The notes under the pieces were generated by a model. That model was not told where the DNA came from. It saw only the letters and a program-made list of their open reading frames with translations, and made no database searches. A DNA stretch of 64,000 bases from Dromiciops gliroides (taxonomy: Eukaryota; Chordata; Mammalia; Microbiotheria; Microbiotheriidae): assembly GCF_019393635.1 (NCBI RefSeq), contig NC_057866.1, positions 8,233,723-8,297,722 of the forward strand, read 5' to 3'. Shown one piece after another: positions 2,795 to 55,839 of this stretch (positions are counted from its first letter, which is position 1; each line of letters opens with the position of its first letter). The translations under genes and the position numbers were made by a program.

Positions 2795-3050
2795 AGTTAT
2801 GGCCTAGTGAGACTCACAGCCCTGACTGGGAGTTAAAGATTCTGGGTTCAAATGCTTCTTTCCAGGTGCTTACTATTATGTAACCCTAGGCAAGTCATTT
2901 AACATCTCTAGGCCTCAGCTTCCTCCTTTGTAAAATGAGAGGGCTGAACTTGATGGCCTCTGGGGTTCCTTCCATCTCTGGAGCCAGGATCCTATGAAAA
3001 AATTTGTTCAAGGTCACACAGGCAATAAATGACAGGAGGCACCTGAGTGA
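2795..3050 (+). mobile_element. MIR-family SINE with 3' 'ccatctctggagcc' tail
   Basis: B-box-like GGGTTCAAATGC near 2842, the CORE segment 'cctaggcaagtcatttaac', 'cttcctcctttgtaaaatgaga', and the tail 'gatggcctctggggttccttcc' are all recognisable. Old and diverged. Confidence 0.75.
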
Positions 3051-3066
3051 TAAGAGATAAGGGAGC

Positions 3067-6000
3067 AATTTTTGTCAAATACTGAATTCCTATCCCAGAA
3101 GCTGGGGTCTTTGGGTTTATCAAACAGTACATTACTAATGTCATTTACTCCAGTGTGTCCTGTGTCTAACCTATTCCATTGGTCCTCCACTCTATTTCTT
3201 AGCCAGTACCAGATAGTTTTGATGACTGCTGCTTTATAGTAGAGCTCCAGATTTGGTACAGCTAACCCACCTTTCTGTGCATTTTTTTCATTATTTCCCT
3301 TGATATTCTTGACTTTTTGTTTTTCCAGATAAATGTTGTTATTATTTTTTCTAGCTCTATAAAATAATTTTTAGGTAGTCTGATTGGTATGGCACTGAAT
3401 AAGTACATTAATTTAGGTAGAATTGTCATTTTTATTATATTAGCTTGGCCTATCCATGAGCGATTGATATCTTTCCAATTTTTTAGATCTGATTTGATTT
3501 GTGTGAAAAGTGTTTGGTAATTGTGTTCATAGAGTTCCTGGGTTTGTCTTGGCAAGTAGACTCCCAAGTATTTTATATTGTCTACCATTACTTTAAATAG
3601 AATTTCTCTTTCTATCTCTTGCTGTTGGACTTTGTTGGTCATGTATAGAAATGCTGACGATTTATGCTACTTTGCTAAAGTTATTAATCGTTTCAAGTAA
3701 TTTTTGAGTTGATTCTCTTATCATCTGCAAAGAGTGATAGTTTTGTTTCTTCCTTGCCTATTCTAATTCCTTTAATTCCTTTTTCTTCTCTGATTGCTAA
3801 AGCTAACATTTCTAGTACAATAGTCAATAATAGAGGTGATAATGGACATCCCTGTTTCACCCCTGATCTTATTGGGAAGGCCTCTAACTTATCTCCATTA
3901 TATATAATGCTTCTTGATGGTTTTAGATGGATACTGCTGATTATTTTAAGGAAAGCTCCACCTATTCCTAAACTCTCTAGTGTTTTTATTAGGAATGGGT
4001 GCTGTATTTTGTCAAAAGCTTTCTCTGCATCTATTGAGATAATCATATGATTTTGGTTAGTTTTCTTATTGATGTGGTTGATTATGTTAATAGTTTTCCT
4101 AATGTTGAACCAGCCCTGCATTCCTGGTATAAATCCCACCTGGTCATAGTGTATTATCCTGGTGATCACTTGCTGTAATCTCCTTGCTAATATCTTATTT
4201 AAGATTTTAGCATCAATATTCATTAGGGAAATTGGTCTATAATTGTCTTTCTCTGTTTTTGCTCTGCCTGGTATTGGTGTCATAAAATGAATTTGGTAGA
4301 ACTACTTCACCCATTTTTCCAAATAATTTGTATAATATTGGAATTAATTGTTCTTTAAATGTTTGGTAGAATTCACCTGTAAACCCATCTGGCCCTGGGG
4401 ATTTTTTCTTAGGGAGTTCATTAATGGCTTGTTCAATTTCTTTTTCTAATATGGGCTTATTTAAGGGTTTTATTTCCTCTTCAGTTAACCTGGGCAGTTT
4501 GTATTTTTGTAAATATTTATCCATTTCATTTAGACTGTTGAATTTATTGGCATACAGTTGGGCAAAATAGTTCCTAATTATTGATTTAATGTCCACTTCA
4601 TTGGTGGTAAGATCACCCTTTTCATTTTTGATACTGATAATTTGGTTTTCTTCTTTCTTTTTTCTTAATCAAATTAACAAATATTTTATCTATTTTATTG
4701 GTTTTTTCATAAAACCAGCTCTTAGTTTTATTGATTAATTCTATAGTTTTCTTGCTTTCAATTTTATTAATTTCTCCTTTAATTTTCAGGATTACTAGTT
4801 TAGTATCTAATTGGGGATTTCTAATTTGTTCTTTTTCTAGCTTTTTAAGTTGCATGCCCAATTCATTGATCTCCTCTTTCCCTTTTTTATGCATGTAAGC
4901 AGTTAGAGCTATAAATTTTCCCCTAAGCCCTGCTTTGGCTGTATCCCATAGATTTTGGTATGTTGTCTCATTATTTTCATTGACAAAAATTGCTGGGAAA
5001 ACTGGAAGATAGTATGGCAGAAATTAGGTATAGACCGACATCTGACACCTTATACTAAAATAAGGTCAAAATGGGTACATGATTTAGACATATGAGGTGA
5101 TACCATAGGTAAATTAGGAGAAAAAGGAATAGTCTACCTTTCAGATCTTTGGAAAGGAGAGCAGTTTATGACCAAATAAAAGATAGAGAATATTATGAAA
5201 TGCAAAATGGATGACTTTTATTACATTAAATTAAAAAGGTTGGAAGCAATGCATCCAAAATTAGAAGGGATGCAGAAAGCTGGGAAACAATTTTTATGGC
5301 CAGTACCTTTGATAAAGGCCTCATTTCTAAAATATATAGGGAACTAAATCAAATTTATATGAATCCAAGTCATTCCCCAATTGAGAAATGGTCAAAGGAT
5401 ATGAACAAGCAGTTTTCTGATGAAGAAATCAAAGCTATCTATTGCCATGTGAAAAAATGCTTTAAATCATTATTGATTAGAGAGATGCAAATTAAAACAA
5501 CTCTAAGGTACCACCTGACACCTATCAGATTGGCTAATATGACAAAAAGGAAAATAATAAATGTTGGAGAAGCTGTGGAAAAATTGGAACACTAATGCAT
5601 TGTTGGTGGAGCTGTGAACTGATCCAACCATTCTGGAGAGCAATTTGGAATTATGCCCAAAGGGCTATAAAGCTGTGCATACACTTTGACCCAGCAATAC
5701 CACTCTTGGGTCTTTTTACCAAAGAGATCATAAAAAAGGGAAAAGGACCCACATGTACAAAAAATATTTATAGCTGCTCTTTTTGTGGTGGCAAGGAATT
5801 GGAAATTGAGGGGATGTCCATTAATTGGGGAATAGCTGAACAAGTTGTGGTATATGAATGTAATGGAATTCTATTGTGCTGTAAGAAACAATGAGCAGGT
5901 GGAGTTCAGAGAAACCTGGAAGGACTTGCATGAATTGATGATGAGTGAGATAAGCAGAACCAGAAGAACATTATACACAGTATCATCAACATTATGTGTT

Positions 6001-33830: not shown

Positions 33831-36028
33831 TCAGAGAAGAGAAAGGAATTAAAGGAATTAGAATAGGCAAGGAGGAAACAAAACTATCACTCTTTGCAGA
33901 TGATATGATGGTATACTTAAGGAATCCTAGAGAATCAACTCAAAAATTACTTGAAACAATTAACAACTTTAGCAAAGTAGCAGGATATAAAATAAATCCA
34001 CATAAATCATCAGCATGTCTATACATGACCAAGAAAGTCCAGCAGCAAGAGATAGAAAGAGAAATTCCGTTTAAAGTAACAGTAGATAATATAAAATAAT
34101 TGGGAGTCTATTTGCCAAGACAAACCCAGGAACTCTATGAACACAACTACCAAACACTCTTCACACAAATCAAATCAGATCTAAATAATTGGAAAGATAT
34201 CAATTGCTCATGGATAGGCAGAGCTAATATAGTAAAAATGACAATACTGCCTAAATTAATTTACTTATTCAGTGCCATACCAATCAGACTACCTAAAAAT
34301 TATTTTATAGAGCTAGAAAAAATAATAACAAAATTCATCTGGAAAAACAAAAAATCAAGAATATCCAGGGAAATAATGAAAAAAAAATCACAGGAAGGTG
34401 GGTTAGCGGTACCAAACCTGGAGCTTTACTATAAAGCGGCAGTCATCAAAACTATCTGGTACTGGCTAAAAAATAGGGTGGTAGATCAATGGAATAGGCT
34501 AGGCTCAGGAAATGCAGTAGTAAATGACACTAGTAATGTAGTGTTTGATAAACCCAAAGACTCGAGCTTCTGGGATAGGAACTCAGTATTTGACAATAAC
34601 TGCTGGGAAAACTGGAAGATAATATGGCAGAAATTAGGCATAGACCAACATCTTAGACCTTATACTAAAATAAGGTCAAAATGGATACATGATTTAGACG
34701 TAAGAGGTGATACCATAGGTAAATTAGGAGAGAAAGGAATAGTCTACCTATCAGATCTTTGGAAAGGAAAACAGTTTTTGACCAAACAAGAGATAGAGTA
34801 TATTATAAAATGCAAAATGGATGATTTTGATTACATTAAATTAAAAAATTTTTGTACAAACAAAAGCAATGCATCCAAAATTAGAAGGGAAGCAGAAAGC
34901 TGGGAAACAATTTTTACAGTCAGTTTTTCTGATAAAGGCCTCATCTCTAAAATATTTAGGGAACTAAATCAAATTTATAAGAACCCAAGTCATTCCCCAA
35001 TTGAGAAATGGTCAAAGGATATGAACAGGCAGTTTTCTGATGAAGAAACCAAAGCTATGTATTCCCATATGAAAAAATGCTCTAAATCTCTAATGATTAG
35101 AGAGATGCAAATAAAAACAACTCTGAGTTACCACCTGACACCTATCAGATTGGCTAAAATGACAAAAAAAGGAAAATAATAAATGTTGGAGAAGCTGTGG
35201 GAAAATTGGAACACTAATCAATTGTTGGTGGAGCTGTGAACTGATCCAACCATTCTGGAGAGCAATTTGGAATTATGCCCAAAGGGTGATAAAGCTGTGC
35301 ATACCCTTTGACCCAGAAATACCACTTTTCTTTTTCCCAAAGAAATCATGGAAAGGGGAAAGGAACCCACATGTACAAAAATATTTATAGCTGCTCTTTA
35401 CGTGGTGGCAAGGAATTGGAAGTTGAGGGGGTGCCCATCAATTGGGGAATGACTGGACAAGTTGTGGTATATGAATACAATGGAATACTATTGTGCTGTA
35501 AGAAATGATGAGCAGGAGGAGTTCAGAGAAACCTGGAGGGCCTTGCGTGAGCTGATGATGAGTGAGATGAGCAGAACCAGAAGAACATTGTACACAGTAT
35601 TATCAACATTGAGTGTTGATCTACTGTGATGGACTATATTCTTCTCACCAATGCAATGGCACAGAAGAGTTCCAGGGAACTTGTGATGGAAGAGGATCTC
35701 CAAATCCAAGAAAAAAAAAAGAACTGTAGAGTATAGATGCTGAATGAACCATACTATTTCTTTTGTTTTTGATGCTATTGGGTTTTTTTGAGGTTTTTCA
35801 TCATTGCTCTGATTTTTTCTCTTATAACATGACTAATGCAGAAATATGATTAATGTTATTATGTGTATATATATATATAACCTACATCAGATTACCTGCT
35901 GTCTGGGGGGGGAGGGAGGGGAGGGAGGGAGAAAAATCTGAAATTGTAAAGCTTGTATAAACAAAAGTTGAGAACTATCTTTACATGTAATGGAAAAAAA
36001 ATAAAATACTTTATTAATTAAAAAAAAA
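33831..36028 (+). mobile_element. Younger L1 nested in L1
   Basis: 5'-truncated inside the RT domain, then the ORF2 C-terminus, 3' UTR, TA microsatellite (35863-35879), G-rich run (35906-35933) and poly(A). Exact 15-bp target duplication AGAAGGAAAGCAGAA (33816-33830 and 36029-36043), which is itself outer-L1 sequence. Confidence 0.95.
33840..35179 (+). pseudogene. L1 ORF2 C-terminal reading frame, one stop
   Basis: About 447 codons in a single frame with one internal TAA at 34097-34099. The FADD catalytic motif of the reverse transcriptase is encoded near 33893-33905, followed by the ORF2 thumb and C-terminal region (SWIGRANIVKMTILPKL, WDRNSVFDNNCWENWKIIWQ, HLTPIRLAKM). It ends at the normal L1 stop. 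No endonuclease domain or ORF1 is present, so it cannot move on its own. The near-intact frame marks it as one of the youngest L1s here. Confidence 0.9.
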
Positions 36029-39930: not shown

Positions 39931-40094
39931 TGAGTAGCTGTGTGCCTAGGGATAAATCACATTAACCTCAGTCTTCCTCAGTTCCCTCATCTATAAAATG
40001 GGCACAAGAATGCCTACCTTCAGAGTTTTTGCAAAGCTCAAATGGGATCATTGGGAAGGAGGAGGTGAATCCGTGTGTAATCTAGAGCCTATGG

Positions 40095-40215
40095 CTTGCC
40101 TTCTCAAGGATGGGGAAGAGATGGGAGGAAGGAGAGAATCTGGAACTCAACTTTTTAAAAAACTAATGTTAAGAATTGTTTTTACATGTAATTGTAAAAT
40201 AAATAAATGTGTGCA
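40095..40215 (+). mobile_element. Old L1 3' terminal fragment
   Basis: 'gggaggaaggagagaatctggaactcaac' then 'aagaattgtttttacatgtaattg' and an AATAAATAAA end. Confidence 0.65.
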
Positions 40216-41050
40216 TGTGTGTGTATAAATATAGGAGAAAGAGGTCTAGCTGTGTTTGGGGCTGCGTGACATGAGACTAGCTTGACACCAAGGATGAGCC
40301 CCCTCCGAGTCAGAAGAAAAGAGAAAATTCCGAGAGAGCTCAGGAGAAATCATAGAAAGAGATGACTGACCGAACATCTCTGGCCTCCCCTTGGAGAATC
40401 AGTACCCTACAGAGCCAGGGGTGCCAGGATGCCATGCCAGTCCTCAGTGAGGATGGCAAGGGTGTGGCTCCAGGCTTCACAATCACTGGATTCAGAACCC
40501 AGATGCTGCTATTGTAGCCACCTCTCTAACGCTATCTGAGAGTGACATGCCCTACGTGCTTCTCTGGCTGTGATGCGCAGGTGGGAGCCAATACTATCTC
40601 TCCTACCACCCTAGCTCAGCCTCGCTCCTCAGAGGGTGGGGACACTGGGGACTGCATTGGTGAAAGGGTTTTCCTCAGCAGAAGTTCCCTGCGCTAACAA
40701 AACCACACGCCAGTCCAAAAGAGTTATTTTTCAAGGTCACAGGCCATAGAGGCTCCATGGGTCAGAGTTCAAAACCACGTCTGCCTGCAGGGTCAGAACT
40801 CTTGCAGCTACCATGCTTTTCTGAGCTTCTGGGAAATGAAAGGCTTGGACTAAAAGATGTTCAGAGTACTTTCCGTCCCTGACACTTTAGTATTCAGATT
40901 CTGCAAAAGGGAGAGGATGACAAGGTGTGCTCCTAGGAAAAATGCCTGGGTCGCCATCTTTGGCCACATCCCGTCTCTCTTTTGATATCTGCCTTTATTC
41001 TCAGATCTCAGAAACCCACACCTTTGAAAGGATGGCTCTACTGTTGGCCC
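40216..41050. other. Unique stretch downstream of the gene
   Basis: An antisense MIR scrap at 40728-40780, otherwise no repeat or coding signal. Confidence 0.4.
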
Positions 41051-41052
41051 AT

Positions 41053-41068
41053 GGGCGCCCTCTGGCGG
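41053..41068 (-). promoter_or_regulatory. Strong CTCF-like motif
   Basis: Minus strand CCGCCAGAGGGCGCCC fits the CTCF core (CCASYAGRKGGCRS) at nearly every position. It lies about 140 bp past the predicted poly(A) site of the minus-strand gene, in unique sequence. Confidence 0.65.
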
Positions 41069-41217
41069 AAGAAACCATGACCATCTCCCCTCACCACCCC
41101 CCCACCCCCGTCAAGCCCCACCCCTTCTCCTGGGGCATGGAAGGAAAGATAGGCGAGAGAAAGAACAGGGAGGCTGGCGCGCCTCGGGATGAGACACCTT
41201 TGAGATAGCATCTGGTT

Positions 41218-41223
41218 TTTATT
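41218..41223 (-). terminator. AATAAA polyadenylation signal of the minus-strand gene
   Basis: AATAAA on the minus strand with a G/T-rich AGGTGTCTCAT about 30 bases beyond. Cleavage would fall near 41195-41205. It is the first canonical signal I see after the stop codon at 42489. Confidence 0.65.
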
Positions 41224-41659
41224 AAAAAGATACTAAACAAATGGGTGATTCATATCCGGTACAGAGGCGAGACACCGTCACATTGTCAATGTGAATACCA
41301 GTCTGGGAGGGGCGTGGCGTGGGCTGAGGGGTGGAGGGCAGGGGCCGCGCGCACACCCCACCCCACCCCACCCCCGCCCCTGTCCTGGGTCTCTTCGGGC
41401 CAGAAGAGGGGCATCAACCGGGAGGGGAGGTCATGGAAGCAGCTTCCTCTGTCTCTCTCACCCCTCCTGGCATAGCCACACCCACTTCCAGGCTAGCCCA
41501 GGTATTGCCGAACGCCCAGTAAAGGAGTCTGTGTGGATGGATGACAATCATAGGTCCGGCATGCGGGCGGACCTCGGCCATCCCCTCAGAACAGCCAAGG
41601 AGTTGGATCCGTGCTCACACATGGAGAAATAGGCAGGGATCAGAGGCCAGGCTTTCACT

Positions 41660-42060
41660 GGCCAATCGGTCAGTCCATAAGCTTTCACTAAGTGTCTGCT
41701 ATGCGTCAGACACCCTGCTAAGCTAAGCACCGGGAAGGCCAAAGCTTCCCTTGCTGTCCCGAGAGCTCATGGTCTAATAGGGGAGACCACAGGCAAAGGG
41801 CCACGTGTGAACGTCCGTGGTAGATAGGAGGTAGTGGATACAAGGAAGACCCAGAACGGAGGGGGGTGAGGAAAGGAGGTGGCAGAATTGCAGCTGGGAC
41901 TATAGTGAGCCAGGTAGAGATGAGGAGGGAAGAGCATCCCACCGTGGCAGACAGCCAGGGAAAACACAGAAGACGAGGGTCTCAGCAAAGAGGTCTCAGA
42001 GAGAGGGCTGGAAGCCAGGGAGGGTTTCAGCCAGGAATCTGGCTTCACCAACCCTCCAGT
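41660..42060 (-). mobile_element. L2 3' region within the 3' UTR
   Basis: On the plus strand: 'gtcagtccataagctttcactaagtgtctgctatgcgtcag', then 'gctgtcccgagagctcatggtctaatag', and further L2 complement ('agcatcccaccgtggcagacagccaggga'). Confidence 0.75.
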
Positions 42061-42488
42061 CTCTGGGTCCCTCATCATAGAAACGGCAAGAGACACCTGT
42101 GACCAGCCGAGGGGCATGTCCTCCGGCCCAAGCAGCAGTCTCCTCTTCAGAGGGCAGAGCCCCAGAGAGAACAGCTGCCTCTAACTTCAGAGCCCCAGGA
42201 GGGAAGCCTGGAGGGAATGCATGATCTGCAAACAGCGTAGAAAATCTACCGATAATCTGGCCAAGCCCCACGAAGAGACCTCCTCCCGGCTGAGGAGGGG
42301 AAATGCCTGGAAATGATAAAGTTGCCAAGTGTATACATAAAGTGCCTAGAACAGAAAGGAGCCGGCCATTGGGCAGAAGCTGGAGCAGCAGTCCATACAG
42401 AGGAGTCCAGAAAAGTCCCAACAAAAGTGCCGGGTCATCACGGGCCCCAGAGGAGTCCGAGAGGGGAGGTGTCCTCCCAACATCTCCT

Positions 42489-42599
42489 TCAGCTGCTGGT
42501 GTCCAGGGAGGGACTAGGGGACATCGGGCGGCTGAGGGTCACCCCCGGGAGGTTGGCCACAAAGTTCCCCCATGTTCTTCTCAGAGCATAATTCATCTG
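42489..42599 (-). CDS. Unidentified gene, terminal coding exon
   Basis: Encodes 36 residues and a TGA stop. It begins QMNYALRRTWGNFVANLPGV and ends in a Ser/Pro-rich SPSPSLDTSS tail. The acceptor is a pyrimidine tract followed by CAGCAG, a tandem (NAGNAG) acceptor: using the first AG includes a Gln codon, using the second drops it. The exon starts on a codon boundary and the preceding exon ends on one, so the join QQYKK/QMNY is in frame. Dense aromatic and hydrophobic residues suggest a short conserved C-terminal motif. I do not recognise the family. The splice logic makes a real exon likely. Cross-species protein alignment would settle it. Confidence 0.65.
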   Translation of the reverse strand, partial: QMNYALRRTWGNFVANLPGVTLSRPMSPSPSLDTSS

Positions 42600-42699
42600 C
42601 TGGGGGACAGAAAGGTAGGGGTCAGTCAGGAGAGAGCAATTGTGTCCAAGGGGGAAACTGGGGACCTGCTGAATGTTCTGAGATGTTTTTCTCCTTAGG

Positions 42700-42714
42700 G
42701 CCACCAGGTGGTAC
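42700..42714 (+). promoter_or_regulatory. Weaker CTCF-like motif in the intron
   Basis: GCCACCAGGTGGTAC follows the CTCF core but has T where C is strongly preferred. Confidence 0.35.
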
Positions 42715-42779
42715 TAGGGAGCCAAAGCAAGGTGCTATGCTTAGCCAGATAAAATCGCCCTCCAATTCAATTCAACCTA

Positions 42780-43245
42780 GTTGAGCATCAGTTTCCTCAT
42801 CTGTAAAATGGTCCTGACAAGCCCTGTACTCCCCCTCGGAATTGTTAAGCAGTATAGAGGAAAGATTCAGGGTCAGCTTGAATGAGATCATATGTGAGAA
42901 ACACTTTGCAAACATTAGTTAAAGTGAGGTAAGAGTCAGTTGTGATTTGTCCAAACTGTTGAGAATGAACCTTCACTGGCAATGCTGCTGGGGCAGATAA
43001 TAAGGAAGATGGGAGACCTGCCCCTAAAGGACTAGAGAATTCATTAGGGGATCCAAGACACCCCCCTTAACTCCCACTAGGATAACAGTAACAATGGCTT
43101 CCATTCACAGATCATTTAACATACAGTGTATTCTGTGAGTCTAGCCTGTCTCTGAGCCTCAGTGTTCTCATCTGTGAAATGGGGAGGGTGATATTCGCTC
43201 TGCCTATTTTTCCAGGACTGTGTGAGGAAGCTTTGTATAGAGCTA
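42780..43245 (+). mobile_element. Two MIR-type fragments in the intron
   Basis: 42780-42935 has 'catcagtttcctcatctgtaaaatgg' and 'cactttgcaaacattag'. 43135-43245 has 'ctgagcctcagtgttctcatctgtgaaatgggg'. Both are antisense to the gene. Confidence 0.7.
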
Positions 43246-43431
43246 TGAGGGGACCCCTGGGAGTGGGATAGGAAGGAGATACTAGAAGACTTATTGTTCC
43301 CATTTTGAAGACAGGGAAACTAAGGACTGTGGATCTCTGTCTCATGGCCTTTTAGGGGGACTGTGGCTCTCTGAGGAAAAGGGTACCCTTCCCAGTCCCC
43401 CTCCCTTCTTATTCTTGGCCCCAACGCTTAC

Positions 43432-43883
43432 CTTCTTGTACTGTTGCATTCTCTGCTTCCCATGACTCTTGCCTTGGATCAGCTGCTCTGTGTCCCCCAG
43501 ACTCACAGTGGGGAATTCGTGAGCAGGAGTGTCCAGCCCTTCAGGGAGGCCAGAGCTGGTTTCCTGTCGCCAGGAGTGAGGCTTCTCTCTGCGGTGTCGG
43601 AAGCTAAGGGACCTCTGGAATCGGGGGGCCTTCTGGTGCCCTTTGGGGACTACAGGACTCAGCCCCTTGGATTCTAAGGGCTCCCCCCACATCTCCTGCA
43701 GTTGGTCATAGGAGGGCCGGAGGACCCTAAAGGACTGGCTGCGGGTGGTCACCATGCTTGCTGGGAGTGAATGATCAGGTCTGGGCTGGGGCTCCCTTGT
43801 AAGTAGCCTGAGTTCATACTGCTGCTCAGCCACAGGAGTCTCCACCCAACTGACAGGACACTTGGGGCCAAAGGTTGGAGCAG
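43432..43883 (-). CDS. Unidentified gene, penultimate coding exon
   Basis: 452 nt, open throughout: two bases finishing a split codon, then 150 codons. The donor is AAG|GTAAGC, a full consensus. The acceptor is CTTTGGACCTTTAG|CT with a modest pyrimidine tract. The peptide is rich in Arg, Ser, Pro and Gln and looks largely disordered. It has two similar basic motifs, TRSQSFRV (residues 46-53) and QRSLSFRH (89-96), both good basophilic-kinase or 14-3-3-like sites. Between them is an aromatic-acidic segment, RPSYDQLQEMWGEP (55-68). No in-frame ATG precedes the acceptor, so this is an internal exon. No upstream exon was found by eye. Family unknown. Confidence 0.65.
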
Positions 43884-43987
43884 CTAAAGGTCCAAAGTAC
43901 AAACCACATCATCTTCCAGGGTTAAAGGGAGCCCTGACCACCACCCTCCCCCAGCTGCCCTCCTGAATCACTCTGTACCTATAATAT

Positions 43988-55344: not shown

Positions 55345-55493
55345 CTTTTTTTTTTGTTTGAGGCAATTGGGGTTAAGTGACTTGCCCAGGGTCTCACAGC
55401 TAGTAAGTATTAAGTGTCTGAGGTCAGGTTTGAACTCAGGTCCTCCTGAATCCAGGGCTGGTGCTCTATCCACTGCACCACCTAGCTGCCCCT
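55345..55493 (-). mobile_element. Young SINE, first of two at one target
   Basis: GAGGCAATTGGGG to CTAGCTGCCCC, between AGTTCATTTCT (55334-55344) and GTTCATTTCT (55494-55503). Confidence 0.95.
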
Positions 55494-55503
55494 GTTCATT
55501 TCT

Positions 55504-55660
55504 TTTTTTTTTTTTCTTTTTCTTTGCTGGGCAATGAGGGTTAAGTGACTTGCCCAGGGTCACACAGCTAGTAAGTGTCAAGTGTCTGAGGCCAGATTTG
55601 AACTCAGGTCCTCCTGAATCCAGGGCCGGTGCTCTATCCACTGCGCCACCTAGCTGCCCC
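55504..55660 (-). mobile_element. Young SINE, second of two at one target
   Basis: GCTGGGCAATGAGGG to CTAGCTGCCCC, between GTTCATTTCT (55494-55503) and AGTTCATTTCT (55661-55671). Confidence 0.95.
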
Positions 55661-55839
55661 AGTTCATTTCTTTTTGATATCAGGTATCTTACATTTTCTT
55701 TTCTTTTTTTTAATCTTTTGATTCTGTTCCAATTATTTTTTGCTGACTCATGGAGTCTGGTTTCACTTTGGTTCATTTTTCAGGGAGTCTATTTCTTTTT
55801 CCTTTTCTTCTTCTTTTTAGCATTTTTACACTGCTTTCA

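Follow-up and report, generated by a model that had tools for sequence, protein, structure and literature searches.

Within a 64-kb stretch of DNA, hereafter called the window, two minus-strand open frames had been singled out from their letters as spliceable exons of a protein that could not be placed. Which protein do they encode, where does its coding region begin and end, and does the locus hold a working gene? Our analysis indicated, with a probability of roughly 0.97, that the two exons constitute the whole coding region of C11orf86 (FACI) from a marsupial that is almost certainly Dromiciops gliroides. Dromiciops gliroides (Microbiotheria), the monito del monte, is a South American hibernating marsupial. 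The gene is already known: it is a catalogued, ordinary vertebrate gene, and it belongs to a Pfam family with a published function. The original prediction was right in that a real gene had escaped recognition, but the protein is not without a place, being the C11orf86/FACI homolog, a PF15464 protein found in 12 marsupial species. The parts of the locus are listed below in the direction of transcription.

43756..43908, minus strand: open stretch in frame with the ATG that follows; a possible acceptor, TTCACTCCCAG/CAAGCATGG, immediately precedes that ATG.
43432..43755, minus strand: first coding exon of the C11orf86/FACI homolog (MVTTRSQS...QQYKK, 108 codons), which ends at the donor AAG/GTAAGC.
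42600..43431, minus strand: intron of 832 nt (835 nt with the downstream AG), GT...AG, with a pyrimidine tract ahead of the acceptor.
42489..42599, minus strand (start at 42596 with the downstream AG): terminal coding exon, (Q)MNYALRRTWGNFVANLPGV...DTSS, stop TGA.
41218..41223, minus strand: candidate poly(A) signal AATAAA, about 1.27 kb past the stop, recognised by consensus only.

The family assignment was supported by each exon separately. When exon 1 was searched alone, its only Pfam match was PF15464 (DUF4633; 5.3e-17, profile positions 23-89 in the better of two stretches), and the only match of the terminal exon alone was to the same family (5.1e-4, profile positions 90-113), with a score of 20.6 bits that lies under the gathering cut-off of 27 bits, which is set for the whole protein. 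The joined protein covered positions 4-113 of the 113 positions of the model (6.8e-25), scoring 87.8 bits in its 143-residue form and 88.9 bits in its 144-residue form. That two separate stretches of DNA fit successive sections of PF15464, in the right order and on the right strand, is strong evidence that one gene is spliced here, and the two exons proposed originally are therefore real. Matches of the 144-residue form to RDD1 (E 0.059, 14 bits) and DUF7416 (E 0.1, 12.7 bits) were rejected, as both fell under the cut-offs of 27. Human C11orf86 (2010003K11Rik in mouse) was also used as a query against the window; tblastn found both exons, at 39.6% identity over 106 residues (E 5.7e-12) and 60.9% over 23 residues (E 1.2e-4).

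The 143-residue form was then used as a query against 5.8 billion proteins; of 20 candidates, 13 were matches, and all 13 carry PF15464. The best match, P0001, is named "uncharacterized protein C11orf86 homolog isoform X2 [Dromiciops gliroides]", and it equals the joined protein over its full length (100% identity over 100% of the query), exon 1 corresponding to its residues 1-108. P0001 probably derives from the annotation of the very locus under study; its identity therefore demonstrates that the gene has been catalogued and is not independent proof of expression. Independent support for the gene comes instead from the PF15464 model and from the other matches (P0002-P0013), which are 57-75% identical across 96-100% of the query length and represent 11 other marsupials: sugar glider, koala, dunnart, brushtail, agile opossum, wombat (two entries), Monodelphis, tammar, devil, bilby and antechinus. 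The frame is thus conserved in other marsupials, in 12 of the 13 matches. Among 177635 distinct chain sequences of solved structures, none matched the protein at E<=0.001. In the available main text of the Dromiciops population-genomics paper PMC13429303, which names GCF_019393635.1 as the reference assembly of D. gliroides, neither C11orf86 nor CREB3L3 is mentioned.

The 452-nt frame of the original prediction was recovered (43883-43432, with GTAAGC next), but 43883 is not the coding start. An ATG lies at 43755, and a start methionine stands at this place, alignment position 1, in 12 of the 13 rows, P0001 included; the exception is P0013, the second wombat entry, which has 117 residues. With an A at -3 and a G at +4, this ATG stands in a favoured start-codon context. 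Exon 1 counted from it has 324 nt, ends in phase 0 and joins exon 2 in frame. The frame continues open ahead of the ATG up to 43908, a TAG at 43886-43884 being out of frame; P0001 does not contain the residues of this stretch, which is probably 5' UTR. Upstream coding exons on the minus strand beyond 43.9 kb had been suggested as well; since the coding region, as catalogued, starts at 43755, no such exon is needed, and the idea was rejected, the sequence beyond 44.5 kb having been covered by the Pfam and tblastn searches. Upstream of the gene, the minus-strand sequence GTACTTTGGACCT at 43888-43900 resembles the consensus of a DR1/HNF4-type site; this candidate might fit expression in liver and gut.

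The donor AAG/GTAAGC agrees with 8 of the 9 positions of the donor consensus MAG/GTRAGT and differs in the last base only; it is strong, but the description "full-consensus" went one base too far. At the other end of the intron, a pyrimidine-rich tract, ...ACCTTTCTGTCCCCCAG, ends in CCCCCAG and precedes a terminal exon of 111 nt (42599-42489; 36 codons and TGA), so that the 36-codon length, the in-frame join and the preceding tract were all confirmed. We infer the boundaries of the intron from the equality of the joined protein with P0001. The acceptor itself is a tandem one, CAGCAG at 42597-42602 on the minus strand: use of the upstream AG gives a protein of 144 residues, and use of the downstream AG gives 143 residues, as in P0001. 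In the 13-row alignment, the extra residue at the junction (Q) is present in 8 rows and absent from 4, while P0013 is without that stretch. The 4 rows lacking Q are exactly those named isoform X2, P0001 among them, a pattern consistent with splicing at the downstream AG. A poly(A) signal had also been noted after the gene, and a candidate AATAAA does lie downstream, but the nearest is the one about 1.27 kb past the stop. A scan of the minus strand from 40000 to 42500 revealed a second AATAAA at 40999 and no ATTAAA.

The encoded protein of 143 or 144 residues is basic and probably mostly disordered. Four motifs lie within exon 1: the two RxxS motifs A and C (RSQS at residues 5-8 and RSLS at 48-51), motif B (YDQL at 16-19) and motif D (DTEQLI at 88-93), which follows the pattern [DE]xxxL[LI] and is predicted to bind AP2. 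The RxxS motifs are probable AGC-kinase sites; they coincide with the two RSxSFR motifs pointed out before (RSQSFR at residue 5 and RSLSFR at residue 48). The compact aromatic motif ALRRTWGNFVANLPGV, noted on the same occasion, is likewise present in the joined C-terminus. Across the marsupial rows, the N-terminus MV(T/I)xRSQS is common to 12 of 13, P0001 included, and the stretches invariant in all 13 are the N-terminal Q-S-x-R, Y-x-x-L (motif B), R-x-L-S, DTEQL and W-x-x-F-V-A-x-L-P-G-V-T; T89 is also invariant in all of them.

An AlphaFold model built from the 13-row alignment has low overall confidence (mean pLDDT 59.2, pTM 0.22). It contains one long helix at residues 86-122, where block pLDDT values are 71-84 (residues 91-130). 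A second helix, short and of low confidence, covers the YxxL motif at residues 16-23; no secondary structure was assigned elsewhere. The terminal exon encodes the C-terminal part of the predicted long helix (the motif E region), and residues 96-130 carry a net charge of +7. When the hydrophobic moment was calculated in windows of 18 residues, the highest value was found at residues 9-26 (0.56), and the C-terminal helix reached 0.51 at residues 107-124. As the top value lies near the N-terminus and not in the C-terminal helix, motif E does not stand out by this measure.

Could the locus be something other than a working gene? Stop-to-stop frames of 100 codons or more number 84 in the window, so the length of the exon 1 frame is unremarkable in itself, and such a frame might lie beside splice signals by chance where there is no gene at all. 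However, chance does not make each exon separately match consecutive parts of one Pfam model, nor does it supply relatives of the protein (12 entries) in 11 other marsupials; the separate-exon and joined Pfam matches, together with the protein matches, rule this explanation out for all practical purposes. A non-functional retained copy of C11orf86, either a pseudogene or a second copy, is a different proposal, and the neighbourhood could be read in its favour. In human, the gene order is PC - C11orf86 - SYT12. A tblastn search of the 64-kb window with human SYT12 and with an N-terminal fragment of PC produced nothing at E<=1 and so gave no confirmation of synteny, although these neighbours may lie outside the window. 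Against a retained copy, both frames are open, the start context is strong, and the catalogued protein of D. gliroides is identical; the intron and its splice sites are intact, and hence the locus is not a processed copy. We therefore consider a retained copy very improbable, if slightly less so than a chance frame, and read the locus as the C11orf86 (FACI) gene. The apparent unknown is thereby cleared: it is a catalogued gene, and its family has a published cell-biological role.

Other elements were observed in the window. Frames at 3014-5023 (minus strand) and 34100-35179 (plus strand) look by eye like LINE-1 reverse-transcriptase and C-terminal fragments. A tandem repeat at 55362-55675 consists of a 168-bp unit in 1.9 copies with 93% matches; the minus-strand frame of the repeat (LGGAVDRAPALDSGGPEFK...) has close counterparts among several further open reading frames and looks like a multicopy SINE. 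In a scan of the window against Rfam, no family attained its gathering score.

The role of the family is known from FACI. FACI (fasting- and CREB-H-induced) is C11ORF86 (PMC10114425), and the first paper on it is PMC8938335 (reference 22 of PMC10114425). According to the available text of PMC10114425, FACI binds the AP2 clathrin adaptor and phosphoinositides, including PIP2, localises to clathrin-coated pits and promotes the endocytosis of LDL, and its overexpression in the liver relieves diet-induced hypercholesterolaemia in mice. A marsupial, the koala, is already included in the FACI alignment of that paper. By homology, the C-terminal helix of the D. gliroides protein would bind membrane phosphoinositides, the acidic dileucine DTEQLI at residues 88-93 would be the binding site for the AP2 clathrin adaptor, with a weak contribution from YDQL at 16-19. 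Binding to AP2 and the membrane would in turn promote clathrin-mediated uptake of LDL in liver and gut. Membrane binding, AP2 binding, LDL uptake and control by CREB-H would all carry over by analogy from FACI in cell lines and mice. The D. gliroides sequence adds one more FACI, from a hibernating marsupial, for the study of this fasting-induced regulator of LDL uptake.

The AP2 motif differs in detail between the two proteins: the FACI studied in PMC10114425 has DKEQLI, and D. gliroides has DTEQLI. As described there, co-localisation with AP2M1 and clathrin was lost in the mutants D70A, K71A, L74A and I75A, was very weak in E72A and was kept in Q73A. The place of K71 is occupied by T in all 13 marsupial rows, and the AP2 behaviour of the marsupial motif therefore cannot be read directly from these mutants. 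The last residue of the motif also varies among the rows: 6 have I, another 6 have V and a single row has L. The rows with DTEQLV (P0003, P0004, P0005, P0007, P0009 and P0013) represent 5 species, namely koala, wombat (twice), dunnart, brushtail possum and tammar, while D. gliroides retains LI at the end of the motif. In PMC10114425, I75A, the change at this last place, abolished the localisation to coated pits; the mutant section of that paper names no change to valine. Should valine make AP2 binding weaker, the FACI of several marsupials may be altered or reduced in its endocytic function. The LI/LV difference among marsupials offers a natural experiment, if a small one, on the AP2 motif. 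We regard it as unlikely that the motif has drifted in the LV marsupials to a reduced or altered endocytic function while the hibernating D. gliroides has kept a strong form.

In its overall plan, the marsupial protein resembles the known one. The gene structure, the family membership, the motifs and the predicted helix are all seen in the D. gliroides locus. The protein is longer than FACI, with 143 or 144 residues vs "around 115" in PMC10114425, and its extra residues, judged against the human sequence, are placed partly between the motifs and partly at the C-terminal end. The elements RxxS, YxxL, RxxS and DxxxLI of FACI (PMC10114425) follow one another in the same order in the D. gliroides protein, which also has a predicted C-terminal helix; this predicted helix and the predicted disorder appear to match, in outline, the published two-part model of FACI.
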